Positions 5,896 through 62,848 of a DNA stretch of 64,000 bases are shown here, piece after piece (within the stretch, counting starts at the first letter, position 1; each line of letters begins with the position of its first letter). Where the stretch lies: positions 1-64,000 of the forward strand of contig NZ_AUHX01000001.1 of NCBI RefSeq assembly GCF_000423405.1, given 5' to 3'. A program made the position numbers and the translations under genes. The notes under the pieces were generated by a model that saw only the letters and a program-made list of their open reading frames with translations, was not told where the DNA came from and made no database searches. The DNA comes from Mesonia mobilis DSM 19841 (GTDB taxonomy: Bacteria; Bacteroidota; Bacteroidia; Flavobacteriales; Flavobacteriaceae).

Positions 5896-6126
5896 CTGTT
5901 AATTATGAGAATAATTTATGCTTTTATAGTGTCTTCATTTGTTTTTAGCACTAAAAACTCCTTCAAATCTATAATTTTTAAATTTATAATCACTTAAAAA
6001 ATAATTATTTATAAGTATTGAAGTAGTAATGACGTACTGTTAATTTATGGTGAAGTAATCGAAGTGTATTAAAAAAACGATATCTCATCTTTTCAATTTC
6101 TAATTTTCTAAAAATTTTTAACACTA

Positions 6127-6189: not shown

Positions 6190-6232
6190 AAAGTTACGAT
6201 AACGATTGAAATGATTATTTAAATTTTAAAAT

Positions 6233-9169: not shown

Positions 9170-9182
9170 AAAGAATGATATA

Positions 9183-10664: not shown

Positions 10665-10665
10665 A

Positions 10666-12117: not shown

Positions 12118-12136
12118 AATTTAAAAATTTAGAAAG

Positions 12137-13876: not shown

Positions 13877-13947
13877 AAATAAATTTCGCTAAACCTTTCT
13901 AAGCAGATGATCTTAGCCAATCATCTGCCTAGATATTTTAAATAAAT

Positions 13948-15390
13948 ATGAAAAAAATACTTCATAAATGCATCGGAGTTTCTTTAGGTATTGCAATGTT
14001 ATCAACGTTTAGTTCTTGCATCGGCGATTCTAAAGCAAATTCTTCCGAAGAAAAAAATAAAAGCTTAGGCAATGTTTATATTACAACCTTCGATCAAGAA
14101 AAACTTTTAGCTGAAAGTGAGATCACAAATTCTGAAACTCAGAATGCTGAACAATTATCGGTTATTAAAATTGATGCTGACAAAACCTACCAAACGATGG
14201 ATGGTTTTGGTTATACTTTAACCGGTGGTAGCGCGATGCATATTCACCAAATGTCAGATAAAGTTCGTCAAGATTTATTACAAGAACTCTTTGCACGAGA
14301 TACCAATAGCATTGGCGTAAGTTATTTAAGAATAAGTATTGGCGCTTCAGATCTAGATGCAGCACCATTTTCTTATAACGATCTACCGGAAGGCGAAACC
14401 GATAAAAATCTGGAGCATTTTTCTTTAGCTAATGATACACTACATTTAATTCCGGTACTAAAAGAAATCATTAAAATTCAACCTGAAATTAAAATTTTAG
14501 GTTCTCCTTGGTCACCGCCAAAATGGATGAAAACCAATAACGATACTCGCGGCGGAAGTTTAAAAGAAGAATTTTACGATAGTTATGCCAATTATTTCGT
14601 AAAATATATTGAAGAGATGAAGGCTGAAGGAATTACGATCGATGCTATTACTGTACAAAATGAACCTTTGCATCCCGGCAACAATCCAAGTTTATTGATG
14701 GAAGCTGAACAGCAAAAGGAATTTGTAAAAAATCATTTAGGGCCAATTTTCGAAGAAAATAATATAGAAACCAAGATCATTGTTTATGATCACAATGCCG
14801 ATCGTCCCGATTATCCCATCACGATCTTAAACGATTCTGTAGCGGCAAAATATATAGATGGTTCTGCATTTCATTTATACGGTGGTGAGGTTGATGCGAT
14901 TTCGAAAGTACACGAAGCGCATCCCGATAAAAACCTATATTTTACAGAACAATGGGTAGGAGCTCCTGGCGATTTTGCTAAAGAAATGAATTGGCATACT
15001 GAAAATCTAATAATCGGTGCGACTAGAAATTGGTGTAAAACTGTTTTAGAGTGGAATGTTGCTGCAGACGAAAATCAACAACCGCATACCGATCGTGGTG
15101 GTTGTGATCGTTGCTTGGGCGCAATAACCATTAAAGGAGATGAGGTTACCCGTGAACCTGCGTATTATATTATTGCGCAAGCTTCAAAATTTGTAACGCC
15201 TGGTTCTGTTAGAATCGAATCTAATTTACTGGAAGAATTACCTAATGTTGCTTTTAAAACTCCTGAAGGTAAAATTGTAGTGATCGTTCAGAATAAAAAT
15301 AAAAAAGCGCAATCATTTCAACTTCAATTAGAAAATGAAACGCTTAAAGTGAAATTACCTGCAGAATCGGTTGGTACGTTCGTTATTTAA
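13948..15390 (+). CDS. Glycoside hydrolase family 30 lipoprotein, second copy
   Basis: A paralogue of the product of 10666-12117, with the same landmarks: lipobox FSSC, GFGYTLTGGSA, SPWSPPKWMKTN, acid/base Glu in QNEPLH (about E239) and nucleophile Glu in YFTEQW (about E334). At 480 residues it has the full barrel and beta-sandwich. The sequences differ substantially along the length, so this is an old duplication or separate acquisition, and the two may differ in endo/exo mode or branch tolerance. The 71-base gap after the SusE-like gene holds a poor TCATCTGCCTAG/CAGATGATC-type repeat (ends of 13906-13932) but no clear terminator. Confidence 0.9.
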   Translation: MKKILHKCIGVSLGIAMLSTFSSCIGDSKANSSEEKNKSLGNVYITTFDQEKLLAESEITNSETQNAEQLSVIKIDADKTYQTMDGFGYTLTGGSAMHIHQMSDKVRQDLLQELFARDTNSIGVSYLRISIGASDLDAAPFSYNDLPEGETDKNLEHFSLANDTLHLIPVLKEIIKIQPEIKILGSPWSPPKWMKTNNDTRGGSLKEEFYDSYANYFVKYIEEMKAEGITIDAITVQNEPLHPGNNPSLLMEAEQQKEFVKNHLGPIFEENNIETKIIVYDHNADRPDYPITILNDSVAAKYIDGSAFHLYGGEVDAISKVHEAHPDKNLYFTEQWVGAPGDFAKEMNWHTENLIIGATRNWCKTVLEWNVAADENQQPHTDRGGCDRCLGAITIKGDEVTREPAYYIIAQASKFVTPGSVRIESNLLEELPNVAFKTPEGKIVVIVQNKNKKAQSFQLQLENETLKVKLPAESVGTFVI

Positions 15391-15415
15391 AAAATCCCCA
15401 AAAACTATAAACTTT

Positions 15416-17722
15416 ATGAAATTATATTCACTATTTCTAGGAGTGTTTTTGCTCTTCGGAAATTTTGCTCAGGCGCAATTAAACAGTACAGCCCACGATC
15501 AAGAGATCGAGTCGTTAATCAATAAAATGACGATTGAAGAAAAAGTCGGGCAAATGACGCAGATCACGCTCGATGTGATCACAAAAGGAGACGATATTTA
15601 TTCTAGTTACGAACCTTTTGAGTTAGATCAAGATTCGTTAAACAAAGCTTTGATAGATCATCATATTGGTTCGGTGTTGAATACGGCGAATAACCGTGCA
15701 TTAACGCCACAAAAATGGTATTCTTTAATTAGTCAAATTCAAGAAACTGCATTAAAAGATCGATTAGAGATTCCTGTAATTTATGGAGTAGATATGATTC
15801 ACGGAGCGACTTATACGGTGGGAGCTACAATGTTTCCGCAGCAAATTGGTCAGGCGGCAACCAGAAATCGTGACTTAGTAAAAAAAGGAGCAGAAATCAC
15901 AGCTTACGAAACCAGAGCGAGCAGTATTTCTTGGAATTTTTCTCCGGTATTAGACTTAGGAATGGATCCTCGATTTCCTAGAATTTGGGAATCTTTTGGT
16001 GAAGATCCTTATTTAATTTCAGAATTAGGCGTAGAAATGATCGATGGTTATGAAGGTGAAAACAATGACCTTTCGAATCCGGAACACGTAGCGAGTTCTT
16101 TAAAGCACTTTTTAGGTTATCACGCGGCTACTTCAGGGAAAGATAGAACACCTTCTTACATTCCTACTTCAGCATTACGCGAATATCATTTGCCGTCTTT
16201 TAAAGCTGCTGTCGAAGCCGGAGCGCATACGATTATGATCAATAGCGGAATCATTAATGGAATTCCTGTTCACGCCAATAAAAATTTATTGACGGGTTTA
16301 CTTAAAGAAGAATTAAACTTTAAAGGTTTAGTCGTGACCGATTGGGCAGATATTGAAAATCTTCATCGCCGTGATCGTATTGCTAAAGATAATAAAGAAG
16401 CAGTGATGATGGCCATTAATGCCGGTATAGATATGTCGATGGTTCCTTATAAATACGAAGTTTTTTACAATAGTTTGGTTGAATTGGTAAAAGAAGGAAA
16501 GGTAAAAGAAGAACGAATCGATGATGCCGTAAGACGAATTTTACGGGTGAAATTTGCGTTGAATTTATTTGAACATCCTACGACCAATCCAAAAGATTAT
16601 CCTGATTTTGGAAGTAAAGATTTTGAAAATGCAGCTTACAACACCGCAGCAGAATCGATTACTTTACTAAAAAATGAAGAAAATATACTTCCGCTTAAAA
16701 AGAATGCGAAGATTTTAGTGACCGGTCCTAACGCTAATAATATGCGAACTTTAAATGGGGCGTGGACGTATTCTTGGCAAGGTGAAAAAACTCCAGAATA
16801 CGCACAAGATTATAACACGATTCTGGAAGCACTTCAGCAAAAAGGAAAGAAAAAGAACGTGACTTACGTTCCCGGAGTGAGCTATAAAATGGATGGGAAA
16901 TATTATGAGCAAGCTCCGGATCAGCTAGAGAAAGCAGTTTTAGAAGCTAAAAAAGCAGATGTGGTGATTTTATGTTTAGGCGAAAATACCTATACCGAAA
17001 AACCGGGAGATTTAAACGATTTGTATTTAAATGGACATCAGGTTGAATTAGCTCAAAAAGTTGCTGCCACGGGAACTCCGGTAATTTTAGTTTTAAATGA
17101 AGGTCGACCAAGAATTATTAGTAAGATCGAACCAAAAATGAAAGCGGTTGTACAGACTTACTTACCAGGAAATTTTGGAGGTGATGCCTTGGCAGATATC
17201 TTATTTGGAGAAGTAAATCCTTCTGGGAAGTTACCTTACACATATCCAAGATATCCAAATGCGACGATCGGTTACATTCATAAACCTTCTGAAGAGCAAA
17301 AGAAAGCGGAAGGCGTTTATAATTATGAAGCCGATTATAATCCGCAATACAGATTTGGTGATGGTTTAAGTTATACCACTTTTAAATATTCAGATTTAAA
17401 AATTAATACAACTGAGATTGGAGCAGGAGAGAAGCTACAAGTTTCAGTAAAAGTGACGAATACAGGAGATAGAAAAGGAAAAGAAGTTGTTGAATTGTAT
17501 ACTTCAGATTTGTATGCGAGTAAAATAACTCCGGATGTTAAGCGACTTAGAAGATTTACGAAGATTGAATTAGCGCCTGGTGCTTCTAAAACGCTTGACT
17601 TTACAATTTCAACAGACGATCTAAAATATGCCGATCAAAATGGTAAAAGTATTCTTGAAGCCGGTGAGTTTAAAATAATGATCAAAGATCTAGAAGAAAG
17701 TTTTTTTGTGAAAGAAGACTAG
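15416..17722 (+). CDS. Glycoside hydrolase family 3 beta-glucosidase, periplasmic
   Basis: Releases glucose from beta-gluco-oligosaccharides arriving through SusC. The start at 15416 gives a clean signal peptide (cleavage after AQAQ); the upstream in-frame ATG at 15371 lies inside the preceding GH30 gene. The 768 residues comprise the (beta/alpha)8 domain with nucleophile Asp in VVTDW (about D309) and KHFLGY, the alpha/beta sandwich with GENTYTEKPGD, and a C-terminal fibronectin-III-like domain. The Glu in YTE (about E528) matches the acid/base position of plant ExoI-type glucan glucohydrolases. It is the last gene of the PUL and a terminator follows after 21 bases. Confidence 0.94.
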   Translation: MKLYSLFLGVFLLFGNFAQAQLNSTAHDQEIESLINKMTIEEKVGQMTQITLDVITKGDDIYSSYEPFELDQDSLNKALIDHHIGSVLNTANNRALTPQKWYSLISQIQETALKDRLEIPVIYGVDMIHGATYTVGATMFPQQIGQAATRNRDLVKKGAEITAYETRASSISWNFSPVLDLGMDPRFPRIWESFGEDPYLISELGVEMIDGYEGENNDLSNPEHVASSLKHFLGYHAATSGKDRTPSYIPTSALREYHLPSFKAAVEAGAHTIMINSGIINGIPVHANKNLLTGLLKEELNFKGLVVTDWADIENLHRRDRIAKDNKEAVMMAINAGIDMSMVPYKYEVFYNSLVELVKEGKVKEERIDDAVRRILRVKFALNLFEHPTTNPKDYPDFGSKDFENAAYNTAAESITLLKNEENILPLKKNAKILVTGPNANNMRTLNGAWTYSWQGEKTPEYAQDYNTILEALQQKGKKKNVTYVPGVSYKMDGKYYEQAPDQLEKAVLEAKKADVVILCLGENTYTEKPGDLNDLYLNGHQVELAQKVAATGTPVILVLNEGRPRIISKIEPKMKAVVQTYLPGNFGGDALADILFGEVNPSGKLPYTYPRYPNATIGYIHKPSEEQKKAEGVYNYEADYNPQYRFGDGLSYTTFKYSDLKINTTEIGAGEKLQVSVKVTNTGDRKGKEVVELYTSDLYASKITPDVKRLRRFTKIELAPGASKTLDFTISTDDLKYADQNGKSILEAGEFKIMIKDLEESFFVKED

Positions 17723-33357: not shown

Positions 33358-34191
33358 ATGGGGATATTTAAAAAAAATCCATTCGGGCATATACTTTTTT
33401 TAAAAAAGTGGTTAATTAGAATTATGGGCGCTATGACGCATCGTCGTTACCGTGGTTTTAATAATTTAAATATTGAAGGATCAGATATTATTAAAGATCT
33501 TCCCGATAATAATGTTCTTTTTGTTTCTAACCACCAAACCTATTTTGCCGACGTTGTGGCGATGTTTCACGTATTTAATGCCAGTTTAAGTGGTCGTGTC
33601 GATACCATTAAGAACGTAGGTTACTTGTGGAATCCTAAACTCAATATTTATTATATCGCTGCTAAAGAAACCATGAAAGCAGGTTTATTGGCAAGAATAC
33701 TGGCTTATGCCGGAAGTATTTCTATTGAAAGAACTTGGCGTTCTAAAGGTCAAGAAGTAAACAGACAAGTAAAAATGAGCGATATTACCAATATTGGTAA
33801 AGCTCTAGACGACGGTTGGGTAATTACTTTCCCACAAGGTACTACAAAACCTTGGAAACCAATTAGAAAAGGTACCGCGCATATTATTAAGCAATACAAA
33901 CCTATCGTTGTACCGATCGTGATCGATGGTTTTCGACGTTCTTTCGACAAAAAAGGTATTCGTATAAAAAAACGCGGTATTTTACAATCGATGGTGATTA
34001 AAGAACCTTTAGAAATCGATTATGAAAATGAAAGCTACGATGAGATCGTTTCTAAAATAGAATATGCGATCGAGCAACATCCTTCTTTCTTAAAAGTTAT
34101 TTCTGAAAAAGAATTGAAGATCCAAGAAGAACTCAATCAAATGAGAAGATGGAGTTATAAAGAAGAGAATGGTCCTCATTTTGAAGATTAA
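33358..34191 (+). CDS. plsC: 1-acyl-sn-glycerol-3-phosphate acyltransferase (PlsC family)
   Basis: 277 residues. The acyltransferase motifs are block I NHQTYFAD (HX4D catalytic pair), block III-like FPQGTTKPW (the EGT/QGT phosphate site) and VVPIVIDGF (block IV). It transfers a fatty acyl chain to lysophosphatidic acid or a related glycerolipid at the inner membrane face. The C-terminal helical extension is longer than in minimal PlsC. It has its own promoter-like box. PlsC versus another glycerolipid acyltransferase cannot be separated by eye. Confidence 0.85.
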   Translation: MGIFKKNPFGHILFLKKWLIRIMGAMTHRRYRGFNNLNIEGSDIIKDLPDNNVLFVSNHQTYFADVVAMFHVFNASLSGRVDTIKNVGYLWNPKLNIYYIAAKETMKAGLLARILAYAGSISIERTWRSKGQEVNRQVKMSDITNIGKALDDGWVITFPQGTTKPWKPIRKGTAHIIKQYKPIVVPIVIDGFRRSFDKKGIRIKKRGILQSMVIKEPLEIDYENESYDEIVSKIEYAIEQHPSFLKVISEKELKIQEELNQMRRWSYKEENGPHFED

Positions 34192-34229
34192 TTGTTAAAG
34201 TTTGTAAGATTTAACATAATAAATATTAA

Positions 34230-34246
34230 TTGGCACGAGACTTGTA
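34230..34246 (+). promoter_or_regulatory. Sigma-54-like promoter upstream of a serine hydrolase gene
   Basis: TTGGCACGAGACTTGTA matches the sigma-54 consensus TGGCAC-N5-TTGC(A/T), with T in place of C in the -12 GC. The -24 GG and the spacing are exact. It lies in the 151-base space between the acyltransferase stop and the serine hydrolase start at 34343. A second possible start signal, the -7 box TATTTTTG, lies at 34304-34311. No sigma-54 activator gene is in the window. Confidence 0.45.
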
Positions 34247-34342
34247 TTTCATATAAGCGAATGTTAAAAACTGATTTTAAGTTATTTATGATTAGTTTTT
34301 CACTATTTTTGAATCAACCCAAATTAAAATTTAAAACTTTTT

Positions 34343-35260
34343 ATGTTAAAACACATCAGTCTCAGTTTATTAAGTCTTTTTATGTTTACTGCAATTCATG
34401 TAAGTGCTCAGCAAAGCTTACCTGTTGCAGATTTAGCGGAAATCACACCTCTTACCGAAGTAGCTAATGATCCTCTTCAAGTTTTACTAGAAGATGAGGT
34501 AATGAAGAATCCTACGTGGAGGCGATTGGTTAATAACAAAAAAATGTCGATAGGTGTAGTAGACTTAAATAATATAAATAACGCTCACTACGCCGGGATC
34601 AACAGTAACGAAATGATGTATGCGGCAAGTTTGCCTAAGATCGCTATTCTTTTAGCTTCGATGGACGCTATTGAGAATTGTGAATTAGCAGAAACTGTAG
34701 AAGTAACCAGAGATCTTAATTTAATGATTAACAGATCAGATAACCACGCTTCTACTAGAATGATCGACCGTTTAGGTTACGATAAAATCGCTGCCGTTTT
34801 ACAAAGTCCTGAATATAAATTATACGATGAATTAAATGGCGGTGGCCTTTGGGTAGGTAAACGTTATGCTGCCGGCGGACCAAGAAATCCTGATCCTATT
34901 AAAGGATTAAGTCACGCAGCTACCGTGCAACAAGTTTGTAGATTTTACTATAAAATGATCACTGGTAGTTTAGTTTCACCGGAAAAATCTAAGAAGATGT
35001 TAGATATTATGGAAGATTCTCATCTTCACCATAAATTTGTAAATACTTTAGATCGTATTGCTCCAAACGCTAGAGTTTTTAGAAAATCTGGGTCTTGGAG
35101 AAACTATCACGCAGATTCTGCTTTAGTTTGGGGTAAAGACGGAAGAAAATATATTCTTGTAGCTTTAGTAGAAGATCCTAATGGAGAACAAATTATTAGA
35201 GATTTAGTAGTTCCTTTAGAAAATATAATTAAAAAATCACGTTCTTTGGAAACTACATAA
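34343..35260 (+). CDS. Exported serine hydrolase of the class A beta-lactamase/PBP fold
   Basis: 305 residues with a signal peptide (cleavage near VSAQ). The three active-site motifs are SLPK (S96, K99), SDN (S132-N134) and KSG (K248-G250), so the penicilloyl-serine fold is intact. The usual class A Glu of the omega loop is not obvious, so this is more likely a peptidase or esterase than a true beta-lactamase. It is followed after 23 bases by the transporter/HEAT gene, and an analogous but distinct hydrolase lies beyond it on the other strand. Confidence 0.85.
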   Translation: MLKHISLSLLSLFMFTAIHVSAQQSLPVADLAEITPLTEVANDPLQVLLEDEVMKNPTWRRLVNNKKMSIGVVDLNNINNAHYAGINSNEMMYAASLPKIAILLASMDAIENCELAETVEVTRDLNLMINRSDNHASTRMIDRLGYDKIAAVLQSPEYKLYDELNGGGLWVGKRYAAGGPRNPDPIKGLSHAATVQQVCRFYYKMITGSLVSPEKSKKMLDIMEDSHLHHKFVNTLDRIAPNARVFRKSGSWRNYHADSALVWGKDGRKYILVALVEDPNGEQIIRDLVVPLENIIKKSRSLETT

Positions 35261-35283
35261 TAGTTGTAGTTTGTCCAAAAAAA

Positions 35284-38103
35284 ATGCTAAGAAAATTTAT
35301 ACAGAAAACATTCGACATTAGAAGCGGAGAACTAGGCGTTTCTTTGTTAATGCAACTGTACATCTTCTTAATAATTACAACGCTATTAATTGTAAAACCT
35401 ACGGTTAATGCGTTGTTTTTATCTAAATTAACTTCCGAGAGTTTACCTTATGCTTTTCTTTTAGTGGCATTGGTAGCTGTCGGAAGTTCTTTTTTTTATA
35501 ACAAGGCATTAAAACGATTTTCATTACTAAAAATTGTTACGGCGACTTTAATCGTTTCCGGAGTGGTTTTTATATCGTTAAAGTTCTTGCTAAGCCTACA
35601 ATATTTTTCAACTTGGCTGTTATATTTCTACTATGTTTGGGTAGCTATTTATGCAGTTTTGGCAACTTCTCAATTTTGGGTGTTAGCCAATTTGGTGTAT
35701 AACATTCGAGAAGCCAAACGATTATTTGGTTTTATTGGTGCGGGAGCCATTAGTGGTGGTATTTTAGGAGGTTATCTAACTAATCTTTTAGCGCCGGTAA
35801 TTGGTAATGACGATTTAATGATCATTGCTGCACTTATAATGTTTGCCTGTATTCCGTTATTACATATTATTTGGCGAAAGCGAGTGAAAAACCTAGGAGT
35901 TTTTAGGCAACAACAACGTACGTATGCTTCCGATGAGCCTTCATTTAAACTTATTTTAAAATCCAAACATCTCACCTATATCGCAGGAATTATTGGAGTA
36001 GGTGTGATCGTAGCTAAACTGGTCGATTATCAATTTAGTGACATGGCTTCAAAAGCAATCGGGAATTCAGATGATTTAGCCTCTTTTTTTGGATTTTGGT
36101 TTTCTACCTTCAACTTAACTTCATTAGCAATTCAATTATTTTTAACAAGAAGAATTGTTGGGGTTTGGGGCGTAGCTTCCACCTTATTGATACTTCCGTT
36201 AGGGATTGGTTTGGCAGCGATTCTATTTATTGTCTTTCCGGAGCTTTGGGCAGTGATCTTAATAAAAGCGATCGATGGGAGTTTTAAACAATCAATCAAT
36301 AAAGCTGCTTCAGAATTATTAGTACTTCCTGTACCAACAGAAGTGAAAAATAAAACCAAGTCGTTTATCGATGTGGTGGTCGATAGCGTGGCGACAGGAA
36401 TAGCCGGTTGTCTTTTAATTTTTGTGGTGAAAGGATTAGATTTTGAAGCCTATCAGGTTTCAATCTTAATTCTCATTTTACTCAGCGTTTGGTTATTTTT
36501 CATCTTTAAAGTGAGAACTACGTATTTTGAATCTTTCCGAGAAAATTTAATCAGCTTTACCGCAAAGCAGACGAAACGAAAAAAAAGAAAATCGAAAAGC
36601 GTTTCAACCAAATTAACGATTATAAACGTTTTAGAAAATGGAGAGGAAAGTGAGATTTTATATATGCTGAATAAAGTAAATGATGTAAGCGATAAGCGCC
36701 TGAAAAATTTAATCATTCAACTCCTAGATCATCCTTCAAATGAAGTGAAAGCCGCAGCGATATCTAATTTATATCTATTAGATAAAGGAACGGCGATCGA
36801 TAAAGTTCAGGAGTTAATTTATCAACGTGATGATGAGGTGGTCCTTGCAGCCATGCGTTATTTGCTTATACATACCGATATTAATGGATTAGAATTATTC
36901 GACGCTTACTTAAATCATAAAGATCCATATATTTCTTCTGCAGCCTTACTTTGTTTAGCAATCGAATCTAGAGATAATAAACGTTTGGCACAGCGTTATA
37001 AATTAGGTTTAAGAATAGCAAAACAAATTGAACACGTAAACCTTCCTAGTGATACGCATCGAATCGAAGAAACCATCGAGTTGATCCAGACCATCGGATA
37101 TGCAGAAAACTCAAGGTTTTATTCTTACATCACAGCTCATTTCAACAACAAAAATGATGAAGTTATTAAAGCCGCGATCAAGGCAGCAGGAATAAGTTCT
37201 AGTCCGTTGTTCTTAGATAATTTATTAGACTTTCTTCAGCATAAAAAATTTAGGAATGAAGCTATTTCAGCTTTAAAAAACTACGGTCACGCAATCATTA
37301 AAGAATTGATATTTAAATTGAATTACGATCAAATCGATCCAAATTCAAAACAATTTATTCCTGAAATTATCGGCGCTTTTGGTGGTCAAAAAGCAGTTAA
37401 TGCTTTGTTTAAATTGCTGAGGAATAAAGACCTCATTGTGCGTTTAGAATCGGCAAGAGTTTTAAATAAATTAAAATCGAAACATCCTTCTTTAAAATTT
37501 AGCAAGCGTGATGTGGTGCGATTAATTTTGCAAGAGTGTAAATTGTACCATCGTACGTTATCGGCCATGCAAATACAAAAACAGATCTTTTTAAAATATG
37601 AAGAGATGCTTACCAGCGATAAAGATGTGGAAGAATTTTCAGCTAGAAATAGTTTGATCGATCTTTTAGAACGACGATTAGACCACGGTTTAGAGCAGAT
37701 TTTTACCCTTTTAGGACTTCGATATCAACAAAAAGATATCGAGATCGCTTACCAAGGGATTATTAGCGAAAAGCAAGAAGTTAGAGCCAACGCCATTGAG
37801 TTTTTAGATAATTTACTTCAGCCTAATTTAAAACACACGCTGTTACCTTTAGTTGAAAGTTCTACGGTTTTTAATGAAAACCAAGAAGCAGACGATTTAG
37901 TTGCGCCAACCGAAAAAATGTGCTTTGAAATGCTACTAAAAGGGAAAGACCAGAAAATAAAATTGGCTGTTTTGTATTTGATCGCACAATTAGATGGCGA
38001 AAACAAAACCTATATTCCGTTAGTTAAACCACTTACCAGACATCAGAACAAAAAAATAAGCACGTTTGCTATAAACGCGCTTAATAATTTATTAGAAGAC
38101 TAA
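35284..38103 (+). CDS. Nucleotide-transporter-like (NTT/MFS type) membrane protein with C-terminal HEAT repeats
   Basis: 939 residues. About twelve transmembrane helices (15-425) open with LGVSLLMQLYIFLIITTLLIVKP and include RLFGFIGAGAISGGILGG, a pattern I associate with bacterial Npt1/NTT-type ATP/ADP translocase relatives. A basic linker (KRKKRKSKS, about 435) leads to a ~500-residue soluble helical domain of HEAT-type repeats (LLDHPSNEVKAAAISNLYLL, LLRNKDLIVRLESARVL). A HEAT tail on such a transporter suggests a partner-binding scaffold in the cytoplasm. Transported substrate is not known; nucleotide transport is inference. Confidence 0.75.
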   Translation: MLRKFIQKTFDIRSGELGVSLLMQLYIFLIITTLLIVKPTVNALFLSKLTSESLPYAFLLVALVAVGSSFFYNKALKRFSLLKIVTATLIVSGVVFISLKFLLSLQYFSTWLLYFYYVWVAIYAVLATSQFWVLANLVYNIREAKRLFGFIGAGAISGGILGGYLTNLLAPVIGNDDLMIIAALIMFACIPLLHIIWRKRVKNLGVFRQQQRTYASDEPSFKLILKSKHLTYIAGIIGVGVIVAKLVDYQFSDMASKAIGNSDDLASFFGFWFSTFNLTSLAIQLFLTRRIVGVWGVASTLLILPLGIGLAAILFIVFPELWAVILIKAIDGSFKQSINKAASELLVLPVPTEVKNKTKSFIDVVVDSVATGIAGCLLIFVVKGLDFEAYQVSILILILLSVWLFFIFKVRTTYFESFRENLISFTAKQTKRKKRKSKSVSTKLTIINVLENGEESEILYMLNKVNDVSDKRLKNLIIQLLDHPSNEVKAAAISNLYLLDKGTAIDKVQELIYQRDDEVVLAAMRYLLIHTDINGLELFDAYLNHKDPYISSAALLCLAIESRDNKRLAQRYKLGLRIAKQIEHVNLPSDTHRIEETIELIQTIGYAENSRFYSYITAHFNNKNDEVIKAAIKAAGISSSPLFLDNLLDFLQHKKFRNEAISALKNYGHAIIKELIFKLNYDQIDPNSKQFIPEIIGAFGGQKAVNALFKLLRNKDLIVRLESARVLNKLKSKHPSLKFSKRDVVRLILQECKLYHRTLSAMQIQKQIFLKYEEMLTSDKDVEEFSARNSLIDLLERRLDHGLEQIFTLLGLRYQQKDIEIAYQGIISEKQEVRANAIEFLDNLLQPNLKHTLLPLVESSTVFNENQEADDLVAPTEKMCFEMLLKGKDQKIKLAVLYLIAQLDGENKTYIPLVKPLTRHQNKKISTFAINALNNLLED

Positions 38104-38111
38104 ACTTCTGC

Positions 38112-39389
38112 TTAAGAAGATGTTTCTTTTTTCTTCGGGTTAATCACTTGGTCGATTTTAGAAGCCAATACCATATGATCCCAAGCAGAATTCTTTCTAA
38201 GAACGTTGGTCATTAAACAAACCATATATTTCTTTCCGTTAGGGTGTTCGATAATCGCAACAGAATTCATATAATTATACACGTTACCGGCATATTCACC
38301 ACAAGACTTTCCGTTAGAGCGGTCACAAGAATATAAAGAACCCGATTTAAAATAAACCGCTGCATCTCTAATTTCTTGCGCGTAAGCATAACGAATACGT
38401 CTGTCGGTCATATACATTAAACGTTTAATTTCTAAGCTTGAAGAACTATCAACGACTTTACCTTGTTCTAACTGAACTAAATATTTCATTAATCCAACCG
38501 GAGTACCAATACTTCCGCCAATATCGCCCACGTATTTATTAGCTCCAGAGGTAAAAAAGCTTCCTAAACGCCATTCATCTTTGGTAATTCCTAATTTACG
38601 TAAAGGATCGTTTACGATACTATTAGCTAAAAGCGTTAATTCTTTTCGAGGCGTGTTTTTAAAATATTCATCGGCATCTTCTTCGGTAATATATTCATAT
38701 TCATCACCAAAAGCAGCCATTAATAAAGCTTCTCGCCAAACTACACTTGCCGCACCGTTATTACTTACCGACATCATATGGTCTGCCCATTCGTAAAGCG
38801 TAAATACATCGTCTGCTTTTACTTTTCTTTTTACTTGACGATCATTTTCGATATCGTAATCGGGAATGGTGTGATGGTCGTATAACGCCCAATCGCCGGC
38901 TCTCACTTTTTTGTTTTTTAGTAAAGCTTTGCGGGCTTCCCAAGACTGCGGACAAATATTATGCAGCTGCATAAATAAAGCGGTGATTACAGTAAGTTTC
39001 CCAACGCTTCCTGGTTGGTAACCTAAACTCTCTTTGTGTGCGGCATATTTTAGGTTATTCGGGTCGCTCATATCTAATACCGTCACCGAATAATTTCCTG
39101 AAGGAACCACTTGTTTTATTTTTGCTGAAAACTCTTCATCTTCTTTTAAAATAGTCGTGATAGAATCTTCTACGGAAGTCAATTGTAAATTAATACAGTT
39201 TAACGGAAGCTGAGCGCCGATCGGTAAATCTAATTTTTGCGTAGAATCTTGCTGAATACGTTGTAACCTTAATAATCGAGTGATTCCTGTAGATTCGTAA
39301 CCATCGATAGGGTAGAAGCTCATTAAAACAAACGATGAAACAATAAGCGTAATCCCAAGAATAGTATATTTTTTGCTGAAAATTTTCAT
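38112..39389 (-). CDS. Membrane-anchored serine hydrolase, beta-lactamase/PBP fold
   Basis: 425 residues with an N-terminal transmembrane anchor (about 8-27) and an extracytoplasmic domain. The motifs are SVGK (S128, K131), SNN (S209-N211) and KSG (K348-G350), the SxxK/SxN/KTG set of penicillin-recognising enzymes. Four Cys lie in ... SLYSCDRSNGKSCG and two other places and may form disulfides. It is 7 bases downstream of the dikinase-like gene in the same direction, so the two form an operon. Function may be peptidase-like; a beta-lactamase role is not supported. Confidence 0.82.
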   Translation of the reverse strand: MKIFSKKYTILGITLIVSSFVLMSFYPIDGYESTGITRLLRLQRIQQDSTQKLDLPIGAQLPLNCINLQLTSVEDSITTILKEDEEFSAKIKQVVPSGNYSVTVLDMSDPNNLKYAAHKESLGYQPGSVGKLTVITALFMQLHNICPQSWEARKALLKNKKVRAGDWALYDHHTIPDYDIENDRQVKRKVKADDVFTLYEWADHMMSVSNNGAASVVWREALLMAAFGDEYEYITEEDADEYFKNTPRKELTLLANSIVNDPLRKLGITKDEWRLGSFFTSGANKYVGDIGGSIGTPVGLMKYLVQLEQGKVVDSSSSLEIKRLMYMTDRRIRYAYAQEIRDAAVYFKSGSLYSCDRSNGKSCGEYAGNVYNYMNSVAIIEHPNGKKYMVCLMTNVLRKNSAWDHMVLASKIDQVINPKKKETSS

Positions 39390-39396
39390 AGATAAA

Positions 39397-42303
39397 TTAT
39401 ATCGTGCTTTGTAAATTAATTGATTTTTTGGTGTCTACTTCCGGAGAAATAGATTGTAAGTAGGTTGAACTTTTCGCGTTTTTATTTTCAACAAAAGGTC
39501 TAATCTGGAACAACCATAATTTATTGTTTAGAAAACCAAGTTCTACATCATAAGGTCCGGTGTTAGAGGCTTCTGTTTTTTCAGGAATAGTTTTCCTTAT
39601 GTTTTTTGCTAAAGCTTTAATTTTTTCTTTATTAGTTTTATTTAAAATTGAAGTATTAAAGGCAGTCGATTTTTTATCTAAACCTCCGTTTGCCGGTAAA
39701 CGATTGTAAAAAGTTTCCCTCGCAGGCGAAAGTAATAAGTCTTCACCATCGAGATCGAGCAACCAGGCTTCGGCAGATTGCCCATCTACCGCGCCACCTG
39801 CGCCACGACTAAATGCGACAGTTAAATCGTCTGGATTGTTATTGTTAATTCCTTTAGTGATCATTACGCCACTATATTCAACATCTACCGACGGAATAAT
39901 TAAAATAGAAGGAAAAACATTTTCAGGATTGTTTAAATACTGCTGGCGCCATTTAAAACTACGCTCGGTGTAAGGAGAAGCCCAAACATCTTTAATTCCG
40001 TTTAAAATTTTCTCGCGTTCGCGAACGTTAAAAACCGTAAGGTTAAGTCCGGCGCCGGTGAAGCTTCCTAAATCTTCCATATTGGTATCACTTCTTAAGA
40101 AAACCGGAGTTCCGCCGATGTTGGTGCCAAAATTATTTTGAAAACCACGTTCCAAATTGCTTACAAACTCAGGTTTTAGTTCCATATTCTTGATCGCTTC
40201 ACGAAGTAAACTTAGACGATCTAATTGGCAATTTTGCACTTCACTTTCCGGGATGTTGCTTTCACGCATTTCTTCTGCTTGTGCAAAAGTTTCTTTTAAA
40301 TATTCCCAATACGTTGCTTGTTGTTTAGGCATTGGTAAATTCATATGTGCTCTAAAAATTCCGAAGGGAACCACCACGCCGTTTACTACATTCTCTGGGA
40401 ACATACTTTTTAATTGTCCGAGGTTTGCGGCTTTTGGTCCGCAGATCTTACCAGAGCTTTTGGCATCAACTTCGGTTAGGTTAAGTACCGTTTTTTGGTC
40501 GAGGTTTATTTTTTCTACCGGAACGCTAATTTTATCTTGATCCCGTTCTTTGTCTTTGCTGAATAATTCTTTTTCTTCGGAAGACATATCATCTTCTTCT
40601 TTCATAATGATGGTTCCTTGATCGGAAACAGCGTAGAAAATTTTCTGCCCATCGTAAGCTTTTAGATCTTCTAAGTTTTGCGGACTCAATACTGCATTCG
40701 GGATCCCTAAATTTCTCGCCAATAATTGTACGTGAGAAACCAAGTTACCTTCAGAAACCGTAGCAATACCGGCAACAGGTTTTAAATCTGATGGTGGTTT
40801 TTGAAATACATAAATATTTTCTGGCGAAACTTCTAGATCTTCACTGTTGTTTTCAACCACAATTAATTTTCCGAAGGCATAACCGGGATTTAAACCACGA
40901 AAAGAACTTTGGCTATCTAAATCTAATACTTGATTAGAAAGTTTCGATTGCTCTCGAATAAATTTTCCTAATTCGCTTACCGTTTCTCCTAAACGCAAAG
41001 CTAACGAAGAGCGAACGCGATCGTCGATAAAACCGGTTGCTTTAGGCTCAAAACCTTGATATTTTTCAACCACATCACCATAAATGGCTTTTACCATTGA
41101 AGTACTCCATTCTACTTGGCTGCGAGCGAGCGATAATTTTTTATTGAGTTCTTCAATCGTAATTTCATTTAAATTTTGAGGCTGAAGTAAATGATCGATC
41201 TGGTTCCATTCCCACCATTCTACATTTCCGGCGCTGGCAGATGCTAAACTAAGCGCATAAATTTTATCGAGTTGCTCAAGTAATGTTTTAGGTTGCCATT
41301 CTGGTGCGGTTTTAAAGATAATTTCTTCAAGTTTTAATGAAACATCTAAAGCGGTTAATTGGTCTGAAGTGCTTTGCACCTCGGGAAGCTCGGTTCTAAT
41401 TTCACACATTAAACTTGCAGCTTCTTCAATTAAAGCTTGCTGAGTAATCGAGTCTTTGTCTTGTTTTCCTAAATGCGCTAACTGATCTCTTAAAAAACTG
41501 CCTTGCGGAAAATTCTTTGCTTTTTCAGCAAAATAACTTAAATCGGTAGGCGCATAAAAATTTTTCATGGCTTTTGTAAGCGAATCCAGATCTTTTTGTT
41601 GTTTTTCTGAAAGATCACTTTTGTGTTCTTCCATAAAATTTTCAACTAATTGAATATCGCTTTTATCGGGTTGCCCGTGTATTTTGGTACGCGCATCCAT
41701 AAATTTTGAATTCTCTTCAGCAATCACTTTAGAAAGACTTCTTATTTGCTGCGCGTCTTGATTGTCGCCACTATGCGGAATATCTTTTAAACTTTGTCGA
41801 ATTAAATAATAGTCTTCTTCAATTCTCGTATTGCTTAAGAGCAACCAGTTGTAAAAATCGATACCCCATTCTTGTTCGTCTTCAGATTGTACAGAACCAC
41901 GATAATATTGGGCTTTTTCCATAATCCAACCATTATCTACACTTTCCAGGTAGTTGTTGAGTTGGTATTGCTTCAATCTAGAATGTTGGTTGGGGTAATC
42001 CCAAAAATCACCTTTATCGGTATAGGCTAAGATATCACCAAAAAACAGGTGATTTTTTTCTTGTAGTCTAATGGTTAGCGGTTTATAGCTCGCGTGCTGA
42101 ATACCGCCAATTTTATCGGGACAAGGATCTTTAGAATCTCTTTTGGTACCATCGTCGCAAAACCATTCGATTTTTAGGTAAGGTCCACGATGAAGGCTTC
42201 GGTATTCTTTTATAATTTCTTTAATCTCTTGGTTAGAAACTTCTTGAGCGAAGATCGATGTGTAACTAAGAAATGTGAAAAAGAGTAAAAGTTTAATTTT
42301 CAT
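39397..42303 (-). CDS. Exported dikinase-like protein: phospho-His domain followed by PPDK-type ATP-grasp domain
   Basis: 968 residues with a clear signal peptide (cleavage near IFAQ). An N-terminal region of about 470 residues is not recognised. Next comes a PEP-utilising-enzyme mobile (phospho-His) domain (about 490-590) with candidate catalytic His524 in LVSHVQLLARNLGIP. The C-terminal ATP-grasp (about 620-940) has GPKAANLGQL, VFLRSDTNMEDL, VWASPYTERSFKWRQQ and LWLFQIRP. This order (His domain, then ATP-grasp, with no PEP/pyruvate barrel) is that of glucan water dikinases, not of PEP synthase or PPDK. An ATP-dependent enzyme carrying an export signal is unexpected. Confidence 0.82.
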   Translation of the reverse strand: MKIKLLLFFTFLSYTSIFAQEVSNQEIKEIIKEYRSLHRGPYLKIEWFCDDGTKRDSKDPCPDKIGGIQHASYKPLTIRLQEKNHLFFGDILAYTDKGDFWDYPNQHSRLKQYQLNNYLESVDNGWIMEKAQYYRGSVQSEDEQEWGIDFYNWLLLSNTRIEEDYYLIRQSLKDIPHSGDNQDAQQIRSLSKVIAEENSKFMDARTKIHGQPDKSDIQLVENFMEEHKSDLSEKQQKDLDSLTKAMKNFYAPTDLSYFAEKAKNFPQGSFLRDQLAHLGKQDKDSITQQALIEEAASLMCEIRTELPEVQSTSDQLTALDVSLKLEEIIFKTAPEWQPKTLLEQLDKIYALSLASASAGNVEWWEWNQIDHLLQPQNLNEITIEELNKKLSLARSQVEWSTSMVKAIYGDVVEKYQGFEPKATGFIDDRVRSSLALRLGETVSELGKFIREQSKLSNQVLDLDSQSSFRGLNPGYAFGKLIVVENNSEDLEVSPENIYVFQKPPSDLKPVAGIATVSEGNLVSHVQLLARNLGIPNAVLSPQNLEDLKAYDGQKIFYAVSDQGTIIMKEEDDMSSEEKELFSKDKERDQDKISVPVEKINLDQKTVLNLTEVDAKSSGKICGPKAANLGQLKSMFPENVVNGVVVPFGIFRAHMNLPMPKQQATYWEYLKETFAQAEEMRESNIPESEVQNCQLDRLSLLREAIKNMELKPEFVSNLERGFQNNFGTNIGGTPVFLRSDTNMEDLGSFTGAGLNLTVFNVREREKILNGIKDVWASPYTERSFKWRQQYLNNPENVFPSILIIPSVDVEYSGVMITKGINNNNPDDLTVAFSRGAGGAVDGQSAEAWLLDLDGEDLLLSPARETFYNRLPANGGLDKKSTAFNTSILNKTNKEKIKALAKNIRKTIPEKTEASNTGPYDVELGFLNNKLWLFQIRPFVENKNAKSSTYLQSISPEVDTKKSINLQSTI

Positions 42304-42305
42304 AA

Positions 42306-42354
42306 GTTAGATTTGGTTATAGAAATATTGAAAATCCTAAAACACAAATCTAAC
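42306..42354 (-). promoter_or_regulatory. Inverted repeat and -7 box upstream of the dikinase-like gene
   Basis: A perfect 10-base inverted repeat, GTTAGATTTG (42306-42315) and CAAATCTAAC (42345-42354), is separated by 29 bases just before the start codon at 42303. The distal arm contains TAGATTTG on the minus strand, an exact TAnnTTTG -7 box at 42345-42352. It could be an operator overlapping the promoter or a hairpin in the leader; no -33 box is evident. Confidence 0.42.
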
Positions 42355-42405
42355 GATAGACCTTGTTAAAACACTCTTAAATAAATGTTTGAGTACTTAT
42401 AAAGT

Positions 42406-43023
42406 TTAGATTTCTAGGCGTTTAATTTCTTTGTAATTCGCTCTTAATTTACGAAGCAGTAAACCGTAGATCAAGGTGTAAATTCCCCAAAGGACCAATA
42501 AGAAAACAATTGTAGTGACTAAACCTATAGCGATTGCTTTTGCCCAGTCGATATTACTTCTTATCCCAGAAAATTCTTCCGCATAAAGTAAAGAGAAAAT
42601 AAAAACCACAAAACTTACAATTCCTGAAGATGCTAATACATAAATAATGTAATACTTTACCACCTTTCTGGTTTTTAAAATATTCTTCATTAAAGTTGAA
42701 GCGCTATCGGTTACATTAATCGCTTTATAGCGTTTGTAAAAAAGTATAATGAAGAAAATCGATATGGCATAGCCTAAACCATACATTACGATGGTAGTGT
42801 TTTTTAGGTGAATGTTCTCTACTTGTTGCCAAAATTCATGATCGGCTAATAAAATGTTTAAAACGACACCTAGGGCTAACTCTGCAACACTAATAAAGAA
42901 AATCCATTTTACGATCGAGGATGACCTCTTGAGTAAAAGTGGATAAATCTCTTTAGCCTTTATGTTAGGAAGATTGGCATCTTGTTTCTTCCAGTCTTGT
43001 TTTAATAAATCTAATTCATCCAT
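42406..43023 (-). CDS. Membrane protein partnered with the ECF sigma factor
   Basis: 205 residues. A short cytoplasmic start (MDELDLLKQDWKKQDANLP) is followed by four transmembrane helices and a basic C-terminus. The DLLKxxWKKQ opening is common to proteins encoded next to sigma factors in flavobacteria, and it could act as an anti-sigma-like membrane partner; that role is inferred from position only. The gene starts 5 bases after the sigma-factor stop. Confidence 0.72.
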   Translation of the reverse strand: MDELDLLKQDWKKQDANLPNIKAKEIYPLLLKRSSSIVKWIFFISVAELALGVVLNILLADHEFWQQVENIHLKNTTIVMYGLGYAISIFFIILFYKRYKAINVTDSASTLMKNILKTRKVVKYYIIYVLASSGIVSFVVFIFSLLYAEEFSGIRSNIDWAKAIAIGLVTTIVFLLVLWGIYTLIYGLLLRKLRANYKEIKRLEI

Positions 43024-43028
43024 CGGGT

Positions 43029-43523
43029 TTACGGATTTAAAATGCTTTTTAGCTTCTTTTTAATTCGGTTCATCTTCACTCTTGCATTTACTTCACTTAT
43101 ACCTAGCGTGTCAGAAATTTCGCTGTAATTTTTATCTTCCAGGTATAGAAACACTAAAGCTTTATCTATATCATTCAATTCTTTAATGGCGGCATACATC
43201 ACAGAAAGTTGTTTTTCTGTCGTGTCGTCGTATTCTTCAGCCTTAATTTTAAAAGCAACATTTTCAAATTCTTGTGTTTTTACTTTTCGTTTAGACTTTC
43301 GATATAAGGTGATCGCCGTATTTAGCGCTACACGATACATCCAGGTACTAAACTTGGCGTCGCCTCTAAATTTGGGGTAAGCTTTCCATAATTGAATGGT
43401 TATTTCTTGAAATAAGTCGTTATGCGCATCTTGATCGTTGGTATAAAGCCGACAAATTTTATGAACAATATTCTGGTTTTGCTCCAGCAATTGCACAAAA
43501 TTATGTTCAGTTTTTTCGGTCAA
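43029..43523 (-). CDS. ECF-family RNA polymerase sigma factor
   Basis: 164 residues. Region 2 has DAHNDLFQEITIQLWKAYPKFRG and the -10-binding FSTWMYRVALNTAITLYRK; region 4 has ELNDIDKALVFLYLEDKNYSEISDTLGIS with the HTH and EVNARVKMNRIKKKL. It lacks regions 1 and 3, as expected for the extracytoplasmic-function type. It forms a two-gene unit with the following membrane protein. Target promoters are not identified. Confidence 0.94.
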   Translation of the reverse strand: MTEKTEHNFVQLLEQNQNIVHKICRLYTNDQDAHNDLFQEITIQLWKAYPKFRGDAKFSTWMYRVALNTAITLYRKSKRKVKTQEFENVAFKIKAEEYDDTTEKQLSVMYAAIKELNDIDKALVFLYLEDKNYSEISDTLGISEVNARVKMNRIKKKLKSILNP

Positions 43524-59872: not shown

Positions 59873-62572
59873 TTAGTTAATTACTAATTTTTGAACTTGC
59901 CCTTTAGCATTTCTTACTAAATAAGTTCCAGAGGTTAATGTGCTTACATTTATGTAAGTAGCTTGTGTAGCGTTTTGTAATTGTCTTCCTTGAATATCAA
60001 AAAGCGTATAGTCTGTAGGTTCGTTAAAAAATACTCTTGCTGAATTTGCAGGGTTCGGGTAAATCACAAAACTGTTTTTATTCATTTGAAAATTATCGGT
60101 AGAAAGTACGTTGTTTTCTAAAGTATAAACACTAATTGTTGCGCTTACTTCGTTAGCCACAACGATTAAACCTTTTCCTTCAGCATTATCTTCCGGAGCA
60201 ACATATACTAAACTTTCCGGAGCTAGATCACCTAAATTTTCAATATCATCTTCTCCCGGAGTTACACTTCTGTTGTTGTAATAACCGTCGAACACCGGAG
60301 CGTTAGGGTTGGTAATATCGTAAACCATAAATCCGCCAACACGTTCTAAAGCGATAAACGCATAATAAGCACCGTCAATTTCTTGAACGATCACAGCTTC
60401 TGGTTCAGGACCTTTATTGTCACTACGATTCTTTAATTCGTTTTCATCGTCGGTAGCGTTAAAAATAGCGTTGTAAACTGGATCTTCTTCAATAATTCTT
60501 TCAAAATCAGAACCGCTGTCATAAACCTGAGTTCCTGTTGAAGCATCATAAATGCTGAAAGATCTTCCGCCGAAAGCATAAAGCTCTTCAAACTCACCAT
60601 CGTTATCAATATCTCCTAAAGTATTGGTGAAAGTCAATTTTCCTAAGTTCTCTTCAATTTCTAAGAAAGACTGATTCGGGAAAACACTTGCATCTAAAAT
60701 TAGATCTTCTACATCTACTTCTTCTTCAAAAGTATCGTATTCTCTTGCATCACCTTCATTGGCAGTCACATAATACGTATTTCCGTTTACGGTATAACTT
60801 GCAATAGCATCTGGCATGTACATTCCGTAAATTGGCCAATTCGCCATAAAAATAAAGTCTTGCTCGTTAGAAGTATCTAATGCATTTTCTGCTAAACTAT
60901 GATCTTTATAACCTAACGACCAGATATCGGTAATTTGAAGATTCACTAGATCGATCACCGCAATAGCATTGTTTTCTTGTAAAGTTACCCAAGCCGTTTC
61001 ACTGTCTGAAGCTACGGTTATGTATTCTGGTTCTAGATCTTCAGAAACACTTGCGTTAGGTCCAAAAATTCTAACTCCGTCTGCTTTTAATTGTACTTCT
61101 TGGGTATCGAAAGCATTAAAGTTTAAGCTAGTAACATTAGCTTGAGTAAGATTGGCAACACCACCGGTAAGATCAATCACAGAAATAGTACCTTCAGGAT
61201 CTACTGAATAATCTGAATTTGGTTCACCTTCATTGGCTACTAATAATTTAGTGCCATCAGGAGAAAATGTAATCATATCTGGTAAAGCGCCAACGTTTAC
61301 CGTAGAAAGTACAACTCCGTCGGTATCCATAAAAACAACTGTTCCGTTTAAAGTTTTATCTGAAGGAACCGCCGTTGCAGCAACTACATTGTTATGGTAA
61401 GCAACACTTGTTCCCGATGCTCCGTAAGCTGAAAGATCGATGGTTGAAATAGATGAAATAGCTAAAGGATTGCTGAAATCTAAAATTTCTACGGAAGCAT
61501 TTCCGCTGTTCATCACAAATAAACGTTCTGTATTGGCATCGTGTGCTACGATTTCTGATCCCGGATTATTTCCTTCGATCGCATAGCTTGCACCAAAAGT
61601 AATTCCTAAATTTTCTGCTGCTGTTGGCGCATTCAATTCATCATCTAAAATATAAACAACGCTTACCACGTCTTCACCTAATTCAGCATTTGTTACGTTA
61701 GTTAATTCTAAAGCTAAAAGCGTATCTGGTTCAGCATCTGTGTTGTTAGGAATGGTGATCGTAATGGTTTGAGAAGTACTTCCTGTTGAAGTGAAAGTTA
61801 AAGTTTCTCCGGCATACGTATAATGTTGGTTAGCGATCGCAGTACTTTCTGCCGTTAAAATAGAGACATCTACTGTAGCATCTGAAGCAGGAACATCAGA
61901 AATTTCAACCGTTAAAGTAATTGAACCTGCATCTTCGTTCACACTTACATAAGCTTCATCAAAATTAACTTCTTGTAAGGGTTGTGACGGTGTAAAACTA
62001 CCCAAAGCTACTAATTGGTTAAGTGGAGTTCCACCGTTACAAGTCCCTTCGTTATCTAACGCATCTAATGCTCCGAAAGTCCAATTATTAGCATCGAAGT
62101 TTCCTGCATTTGCAGCTTCTCCGCTATTTCTTAAATAGTAAGAATCGGTATGTTCCCAAGCGGTGTTAGAACCATCTACGCCATCTTCACCAAAGCGATC
62201 GATAACAGTTGCATTATCATCAATTAACTGAAAAGCATCATCACCATTAGAAGTAATAGATCCGTTTTCGATAAGGTTAGTTTGTGTACCAAATTCTGTT
62301 TCAAAAATAATTTGGTCGTTGGTAATGTAAGCAAAATCGTCGGTAATCGTTCCGAAGTTACTAATATCGATGTTAGAAGTATAACCACCGCCATTAGCTT
62401 GTCTAACTAAATTCCATCCGGTAAAATCGATGGTACCATTTACATAAATTTCTACAACTCTACCATCTGCTCCAGAACAAGGCGAATCTACATAACCGGT
62501 AATCAGTGCTTCTTGAGCAAAAGTTGTTAAAGAGATAAGTGCAAAAAGTGCACTTAAGTAAAATTTTTTCAT
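59873..62572 (-). CDS. T9SS-secreted choice-of-anchor I family protein
   Basis: 899 residues from the Met at 62572, which gives a clean signal peptide ending FAQ; a Met 27 bases upstream would add a charged leader. Domains in order: a lamin-tail-type domain (about 20-185, starting LITGYVDSPCSGADGRVVEIY), a Calx-beta-like domain (about 205-320), the choice-of-anchor I propeller (about 325-800, with MDTDGVVLSTVNVGALPDM and LLVANEGEPNSDYSVDPEG), and a C-terminal T9SS type A sorting domain (FVIYPNPANSARV to KGQVQKLVIN). It should be cleaved and attached or released at the surface. Enzymatic role is unknown; some relatives are alkaline-phosphatase-like. Confidence 0.88.
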   Translation of the reverse strand: MKKFYLSALFALISLTTFAQEALITGYVDSPCSGADGRVVEIYVNGTIDFTGWNLVRQANGGGYTSNIDISNFGTITDDFAYITNDQIIFETEFGTQTNLIENGSITSNGDDAFQLIDDNATVIDRFGEDGVDGSNTAWEHTDSYYLRNSGEAANAGNFDANNWTFGALDALDNEGTCNGGTPLNQLVALGSFTPSQPLQEVNFDEAYVSVNEDAGSITLTVEISDVPASDATVDVSILTAESTAIANQHYTYAGETLTFTSTGSTSQTITITIPNNTDAEPDTLLALELTNVTNAELGEDVVSVVYILDDELNAPTAAENLGITFGASYAIEGNNPGSEIVAHDANTERLFVMNSGNASVEILDFSNPLAISSISTIDLSAYGASGTSVAYHNNVVAATAVPSDKTLNGTVVFMDTDGVVLSTVNVGALPDMITFSPDGTKLLVANEGEPNSDYSVDPEGTISVIDLTGGVANLTQANVTSLNFNAFDTQEVQLKADGVRIFGPNASVSEDLEPEYITVASDSETAWVTLQENNAIAVIDLVNLQITDIWSLGYKDHSLAENALDTSNEQDFIFMANWPIYGMYMPDAIASYTVNGNTYYVTANEGDAREYDTFEEEVDVEDLILDASVFPNQSFLEIEENLGKLTFTNTLGDIDNDGEFEELYAFGGRSFSIYDASTGTQVYDSGSDFERIIEEDPVYNAIFNATDDENELKNRSDNKGPEPEAVIVQEIDGAYYAFIALERVGGFMVYDITNPNAPVFDGYYNNRSVTPGEDDIENLGDLAPESLVYVAPEDNAEGKGLIVVANEVSATISVYTLENNVLSTDNFQMNKNSFVIYPNPANSARVFFNEPTDYTLFDIQGRQLQNATQATYINVSTLTSGTYLVRNAKGQVQKLVIN

Positions 62573-62848
62573 AAGTCTAAATGTTAGTTTTAATTGCACG
62601 TAAAATTAGTTTTTGAATCGCGGAAAGACTTCAACTAATAATTAACTAAGTTTTACTTTTAAGGTGTATTTGCAGTTTTTAAATACCTAGCTAACATTAT
62701 TGAAACATAGATTTAATATTCGGTATTTGGTAAAAGTGAAGTAAATTGAGTTGCATTTACATTTCGTACTTTAAATTTTACAATTGGGTCAACTGTATTT
62801 TTATCTAGCCTACTTTTAAAAGATATTTGTTCTGTAATTAATAGTTAA

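Follow-up and report, generated by a model that had tools for sequence, protein, structure and literature searches.

The first 64,000 nucleotides of contig NZ_AUHX01000001.1 of Mesonia mobilis DSM 19841 (the window) carry a four-gene cassette built around a predicted exported dikinase-like protein, referred to here as the dikinase (Table 1). Its partners are two putative serine enzymes of the Beta-lactamase2 family, of 425 and 305 residues, and a protein (NTT-HEAT) in which a nucleotide-carrier-like NTT domain is followed by HEAT repeats. The conserved four-gene unit is the main finding. An earlier description, made from the DNA letters alone (the sequence-only reading), had placed the dikinase open reading frame correctly without giving its strand, which is minus, and had rightly been cautious about both phosphoryl donor and substrate. 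It missed the cassette, which bears on both.

Table 1. Positions of the cassette, its genes and domains, its site, and the related proteins L114 to L117
Feature	Position	Strand	Remarks
Four-gene cassette	34343-42303		two convergent pairs: dikinase, 425-aa enzyme; 305-aa enzyme, NTT-HEAT
Serine enzyme, 305 aa	34343..35260	plus	Beta-lactamase2; signal peptide; SLPK/SDN/KSG
NTT-HEAT, 939 aa	35284..38103	plus	NTT (TLC, ATP/ADP carrier) at about residues 1-430, then HEAT repeats
Serine enzyme, 425 aa	38112..39389	minus	Beta-lactamase2; hydrophobic start (exported or membrane-anchored); SVGK/SNN/KSG
Exported dikinase, 968 aa	39397..42303	minus	ATG start; open reading frame, domain, alignment and model evidence
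Signal peptide, residues 1-20	42244..42303	minus	hydrophobic start ending [A/S/G]Q; cleavage inferred near AQ
N-terminal helical domain, residues 21-465	40909..42243	minus	invariant C49/C61; known family or fold not found
Phospho-His swivel domain, residues 466-600	40504..40908	minus	profile match and PpsA alignment
H524 codon, predicted phosphoryl carrier	40732..40734	minus	invariance and PpsA alignment
C-terminal ATP-grasp, residues 601-960	39424..40503	minus	Pfam, alignment, Foldseek
Interval absent as a block in six same-genus genomes	34192..42405		between acyltransferase 33358-34191 and gene 42406-43023
L114, 1324 aa	L114 2629-6603		type IX secretion tail, 43.1 bits
L115, 1312 aa	L115 798-4736		type IX secretion tail, 35.1 bits
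L116, 835 aa	L116 2017-4524		type IX secretion tail, 30.3 bits
L117, 727 aa as called	L117 1884-4067		signal-like stretch after internal ATG

Layout and conservation of the cassette

The 425-aa gene starts 7 bp downstream of the dikinase on the same strand, and the pair formed by the 305-aa and NTT-HEAT genes (plus) converges on this pair (minus). The sequence TANNTTTG, which we take to be a promoter motif, stands ahead of both operons (42345-42352, minus; 34304-34311, plus); it was discarded as a signal, being not enriched (84 found against 93 expected in shuffles).

Conservation was followed in a phylum sample (395 genomes) and a relatives sample (60 genomes), both including that of the window, and in a class sample (287 genomes). 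All 12 neighbourhoods of full-length dikinase homologues from the relatives sample hold the same four genes in the same arrangement, among them three from other genera where, in the stretch read, only the cassette genes match those of the window. Seven of the 12 neighbourhoods from the phylum sample (L055-L061) likewise have the window arrangement. In one of the remaining five the contig ends inside the NTT gene, and another contig end carries the rest of it together with the 305-aa gene (L062); in another all four genes are adjacent but rearranged (L064, genome G122); two have the dikinase with both serine enzymes and no NTT in the neighbourhood (L065, L066); and in the last the dikinase stands alone with its three partners elsewhere in the genome (L063, genome G235). 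The class sample adds two neighbourhoods with all four genes together, one of them with an extra gene inserted. Counting the window, the genes are together in 23 of 27 cases (one with the inserted gene), split by a contig end in one, scattered in one and without a cassette-type NTT in two, and cassette-type NTT-HEAT is present in 25 of the 27 dikinase genomes. At identities as low as 40% the dikinase is still accompanied by its partner serine enzymes, and the pairwise distances of three cassette proteins correlate at 0.90-0.93. Seven named relatives were found (six Mesonia and one labelled Salegentibacter, 60-97% identity).

Presence and absence follow the same lines. The dikinase occurs in 13 of 395 genomes of the phylum sample and the 425-aa enzyme in the same 13; the 305-aa enzyme, sought in 22 genomes, is in these 13 and in none of the nine NTT-HEAT genomes that lack the dikinase. 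NTT-HEAT is found in 21 genomes, 12 of them dikinase genomes, and is of the cassette type in 11 of the 13 dikinase genomes. Within the relatives sample the full-length dikinase, the 425-aa enzyme and NTT-HEAT (>1,300 bits) coincide in the same 13 of 60 genomes, a 14th NTT match being partial (77 bits); by kinship the dikinase is in 10/16 genomes of the genus, 3/21 of the rest of the family and 0/23 of other families of the order. The class sample was searched for the dikinase and the 425-aa enzyme, and both are in the same 4 genomes. For co-inheritance the scattered case (G235) matters most, because linkage alone cannot explain why all four genes are kept while dispersed.

The cassette block comes or goes whole. 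All six same-genus genomes that lack the dikinase have the acyltransferase gene next to the gene matching that on the far side of the cassette; five leave a gap of 4 to 126 bp between the two, and the sixth has one unrelated 330-aa open reading frame there. At the thresholds used, the dikinase, the 425-aa enzyme and the NTT are absent from these six genomes, in which the 305-aa gene was not sought away from the site. An ECF-type sigma factor gene and a membrane-protein gene beside the cassette (42406-43523) are not members of it, since both are kept where the cassette is missing. No dikinase match was found in 72,556 plasmid records (E<=1e-10) or in PHROGs, and a scan of viral contigs that finds close relatives only returned 0. 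Within the search words used, open PMC papers gave no description of the cassette.

Domain architecture of the dikinase

The sequence-only reading had proposed a signal peptide, an unrecognised N-terminal region, a phospho-His domain with H524 and a C-terminal PPDK-type ATP-grasp, with the His domain first and no barrel, and each of these elements was borne out. PPDK_N matches residues 622-947 (Pfam, E 4e-20), and Foldseek relates the ATP-grasp to rifampin phosphotransferase (Rph; 5hv1, E 2.9e-12) and HpeI (9goj, E 7.6e-11). The PEP-utilizers match (Pfam, residues 507-538) is sub-threshold, at 14.5 bits against a curated cut-off of 23.1, and the same profile finds 25/25 dikinase homologues at E<=1. 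In a profile of these 25 homologues H524 aligns with H421 of E. coli PpsA, and the C-terminal part of the ATP-grasp aligns with the PpsA E..Q.R residues. H524 is unchanged in 25/25 aligned homologues, at identities down to 40%, as are ATP-grasp residues K624, R737, E743, D744, E921, Q933 and R935. The protein thus has the ATP-grasp K/R/E/Q/R residues and the catalytic His in a swivel domain by which the superfamily is recognised. Loss of the ATP-grasp ligands, which the sequence-only reading had named as grounds for calling the protein inactive, was not seen; because H524 and the ATP-grasp residues are constant over 25 proteins, the dikinase does not look decayed and is apparently an intact enzyme. 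No phosphoenolpyruvate (PEP)/pyruvate barrel profile is among the Pfam matches of the dikinase or its homologues, and the order is His domain, then C-terminal ATP-grasp. The AlphaFold model of the full protein has a pLDDT of 83.6 and a pTM of 0.77.

Residues 21-465 are mostly helical and strongly conserved, with R39-G-P41, W47-F-C49, C61, W126 and Y134-R-G136 among the invariants. Searches with this region returned nothing better than E 0.15 in Pfam and E 0.89 among PDB sequences, and the best Foldseek match of its AlphaFold model (pLDDT 85.2, pTM 0.84) in the PDB has an E of 0.27. With no PDB fold match found for this domain, its confident model possibly represents a new fold.

Export signals and cysteine pairs

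The N-terminus of the dikinase is hydrophobic and ends in [A/S/G]Q in 25/25 aligned homologues while its letters vary. The signal peptide was judged by eye and from hydropathy, not with a trained predictor; four rows (L060, L061, L063, L066), in which the mechanical open reading frame started further upstream, were trimmed to near the hydrophobic stretch. The C49/C61 pair is invariant in the 25 homologues. The 425-aa enzyme also has a cysteine pair, both members of which are present in 26/27 sequences and both absent in 1/27, as would be the behaviour of a disulphide. Both pairs fit an oxidising compartment.

Partner proteins

The motifs of PBP/beta-lactamase-fold serine enzymes (SxxK, SxN and K[S/T]G) are intact in 27/27 sequences of the 425-aa and 27/27 of the 305-aa enzyme. 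The two enzymes score 20.4 and 29.4 bits on NCBIfam bla_class_A, far below its cut-off of 200, and no relative was found for them among PDB sequences at E<=0.01 and E<=1e-5. For both, the likelier activity is peptide or ester hydrolysis or transfer. The 425-aa enzyme carries YPIDG[Y/F] in 27/27 sequences, placed in the window directly after the hydrophobic start with no usual signal-peptidase site; it is possibly a recognition or processing motif.

Cassette NTT-HEAT scores above cut-off in Pfam for both TLC (32.2 bits against 21) and HEAT_2 (75.3 against 27.7). By profile its NTT domain matches plastid and Chlamydia ADP/ATP carriers, namely AtNTT1 (9j3j, E 2.5e-15) and 9j3n, presumably the Chlamydia carrier (E 3.9e-12). 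A tree that leaves out the split gene of G120 separates the cassette NTT-HEATs (support 0.97 without G235, 0.69 with it) from a clade that joins those of the nine non-dikinase genomes to that of G255 (0.997); the latter clade was excluded from the cassette counts. Non-cassette NTT-HEAT genes (L085-L089, L093, L094) adjoin a gene with a lipoprotein-like start, C-x-[ST]-[ST]-[KR]-PY followed by a DPD stretch, which is a possible second NTT-HEAT context. Fusions of this kind have been reported as broadly conserved in bacteria and of unknown function, with ATP transfer speculated, and the part of that report consulted mentions no dikinase in connection with them (Major et al. 2017, PMC5381601). 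The cassette offers a functional context for these uncharacterised proteins.

Wider His-first relatives

Nine further matches in the relatives sample cover parts of dikinase residues 479-841 only (24.7-46.6 bits) and were not counted as cassette dikinases; four were examined (L014-L017, refetched as L114-L117), the other five being L018-L022. L114-L117 have an SH motif at residues 338-361 with PPDK_N after it (E 9.7e-23 to 1.6e-19), i.e. the His-first order, and match the dikinase over residues 479-820 only, at 26-29% identity. Their starts are export-like by eye, which together with the domain order rules out that they are ordinary PEP-synthase-type proteins. The tails of L114-L116 exceed the Por_Secre_tail cut-off of 27 bits, and the ATP-grasp of these three is apparently sent to the cell surface. 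The genomes of the four (G043, G056, G059, G033) hold no 425-aa enzyme and no NTT-HEAT at E<=1e-20.

A possible extracytoplasmic phosphotransfer system

Export signals, intact dikinase residues and co-inheritance with the partners are what the sequences support. The best explanation, which we hold with a little less than even confidence, puts the dikinase at the centre of a four-protein extracytoplasmic phosphotransfer system, possibly fed with nucleotide by NTT-HEAT. By analogy with the dikinase superfamily, ATP in the ATP-grasp would phosphorylate H524, giving AMP and Pi, after which the swivel domain would deliver the phosphoryl group to the substrate bound by the N-terminal domain, a transfer modelled on that of HpeHI (PMC12167813) and Rph (PMC4844700). 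That substrate, probably one bearing peptides or belonging to the envelope, would also be acted on by the two serine enzymes, which would cleave or transfer its acyl groups; in the weakest step, NTT-HEAT would bring nucleotide out of the cytoplasm and return the spent one. The partners suggest a peptide or envelope polymer as the substrate: the acceptor would carry a peptide or acyl bond, which favours an envelope polymer over a plain glucan. A more elaborate form, possible but on balance doubtful, is an ATP-powered machine outside the cytoplasm: NTT-HEAT in the inner membrane would export ATP and retrieve spent nucleotide for a dikinase with a new substrate-binding fold; coupled to it, two PBP-fold acyl enzymes would make or reshape an envelope polymer.

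Several observations weigh against a nucleotide-feeding system of this kind. AtNTT1 K155, E245, E385 and K527 are charged residues described as crucial for ATP transport (PMC10654386); the same columns of NTT-HEAT hold F58, A121, D248 and T371, so that only the acid is kept and three charges are lost. That the columns are rightly placed and the charges truly lost is suggested by two single-domain NTTs of this alignment, which have D in the second and K in the fourth column; the non-cassette NTT-HEATs are without the same three charges. In two genomes (G239, G255) the three exported proteins occur although no cassette-type NTT is present. L114-L117, which widen the puzzle beyond one cassette, weaken the idea that an NTT is needed, since their genomes lack NTT-HEAT at the threshold given and an exported dikinase would thus seem to need no such carrier. 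Distance correlations arise from shared vertical descent too, and the three samples partly overlap and all lie within one phylum.

Some of these findings would also suit an extracytoplasmic dikinase system whose carrier moves a cargo other than ATP, such as the substrate or the product, with the dikinase using ATP or another donor already outside. Three of the four ATP-transport residues are replaced, two lineages manage without a cassette-type NTT, the genomes of other export-signal dikinase-like proteins have no such NTT, and the function of NTT-HEAT is given as unknown (PMC5381601). Against this, in 25 of 27 genomes the exported ATP-grasp enzyme is accompanied by a protein with a nucleotide-carrier fold, which would then be a mere coincidence of fold, and we think such a carrier rather unlikely. 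The system could also scavenge, with the dikinase running in reverse outside, where a phosphorylated substrate, AMP and Pi would yield ATP for import by the NTT; this is improbable, as the two serine enzymes would be left unexplained, the NTT residues are replaced and we know of no external pool of such a phosphoryl donor. What speaks for scavenging is that PPDK works in the reverse direction in bacteria and protozoa (PMC5371819) and that NTTs characterised in intracellular parasites bring in ATP (PMC5381601).

Fold resemblances and patchy presence would also suit a drug-inactivation island of two beta-lactamase-like enzymes, an Rph-like dikinase and an MFS-like carrier. We consider this very improbable, given how far the serine enzymes fall below the class A beta-lactamase cut-off, the different domain order in Rph, the retention of the serine partners down to 40% identity and the lack of a dikinase match in the 72,556 plasmid records at E<=1e-10. 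That the hydrophobic start is an anchor holding the catalytic part of the dikinase in the cytoplasm is hardly credible: the [A/S/G]Q ending is constant while the stretch before it varies freely, C49/C61 is invariant and the partners bear export signals. ATP is commonly assumed to be missing beyond the bacterial inner membrane; an export-signal enzyme with ATP-using residues, co-inherited with a nucleotide-carrier-like protein, makes this assumption directly testable.

Other features of the window

A beta-glucan-type utilisation locus (2974-17722) encodes a TonB-dependent receptor, SusD, SusE, two GH30 and one GH3 enzymes and a Y_Y_Y-domain regulator. It was considered as a hint at a glucan substrate and set aside: no Sus or glycosidase gene matched near the cassettes, in stretches of mostly ~8 kb per side. 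Two genomes (L040, L041) have a relative of the regulator (2974-5895) close to the cassette. At 59873-62599 the window encodes a choice-of-anchor I protein with Calx-beta and a type IX secretion tail, read from a GTG start.

Comparison with known systems

In plant glucan water dikinase (GWD) the His domain precedes a C-terminal PPDK-type ATP-grasp, there is no PEP barrel, and a starch-binding domain lies at the N-terminus. The dikinase has the same order and lack of a barrel as plant GWD/PWD, and differs in being bacterial, in its export signal and in its helical N-terminal domain. The likeness to GWD drawn by the sequence-only reading therefore holds for domain order and not beyond it: GWD1_pHisD scores 13.9 bits on the dikinase against a cut-off of 27 and finds 6/25 homologues at E<=1, no starch-binding domain was found in residues 21-465 (Pfam, PDB sequences, Foldseek), and membership in the plant group was rejected on both counts.

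The class A beta-lactamase/DD-peptidase fold (Beta-lactamase2) has the same SxxK, SxN and K[S/T]G motifs as the serine partners, which lie far under the beta-lactamase cut-off. Cassette NTT-HEATs share the NTT domain and HEAT repeats with the fusions described by Major et al. 2017 (PMC5381601), and form a clade tied to the cassette and apart from that of the other Bacteroidota NTT-HEATs sampled. L114-L117 of Bacteroidota share with the dikinase an export-like start and a His motif ahead of PPDK_N, and three of them, unlike the dikinase, have a type IX secretion tail.

With Rph and the HpeHI/PpsAB small-molecule dikinases the dikinase has in common the ATP-grasp fold, the His swivel and a separate substrate domain. 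In Rph the ATP-grasp comes first and the His domain last, and the dikinase-Rph alignment agrees with this opposite order; the N-terminal domain of the dikinase has no Foldseek match in the PDB below E 0.27, and we know of no export signal in Rph-type or HpeHI dikinases. The catalytic His and ATP-grasp residues align with those of E. coli PpsA, yet compared with PEP synthase and PPDK, which have the ATP-grasp first and the barrel last, the dikinase has the opposite order, no barrel and an export signal.

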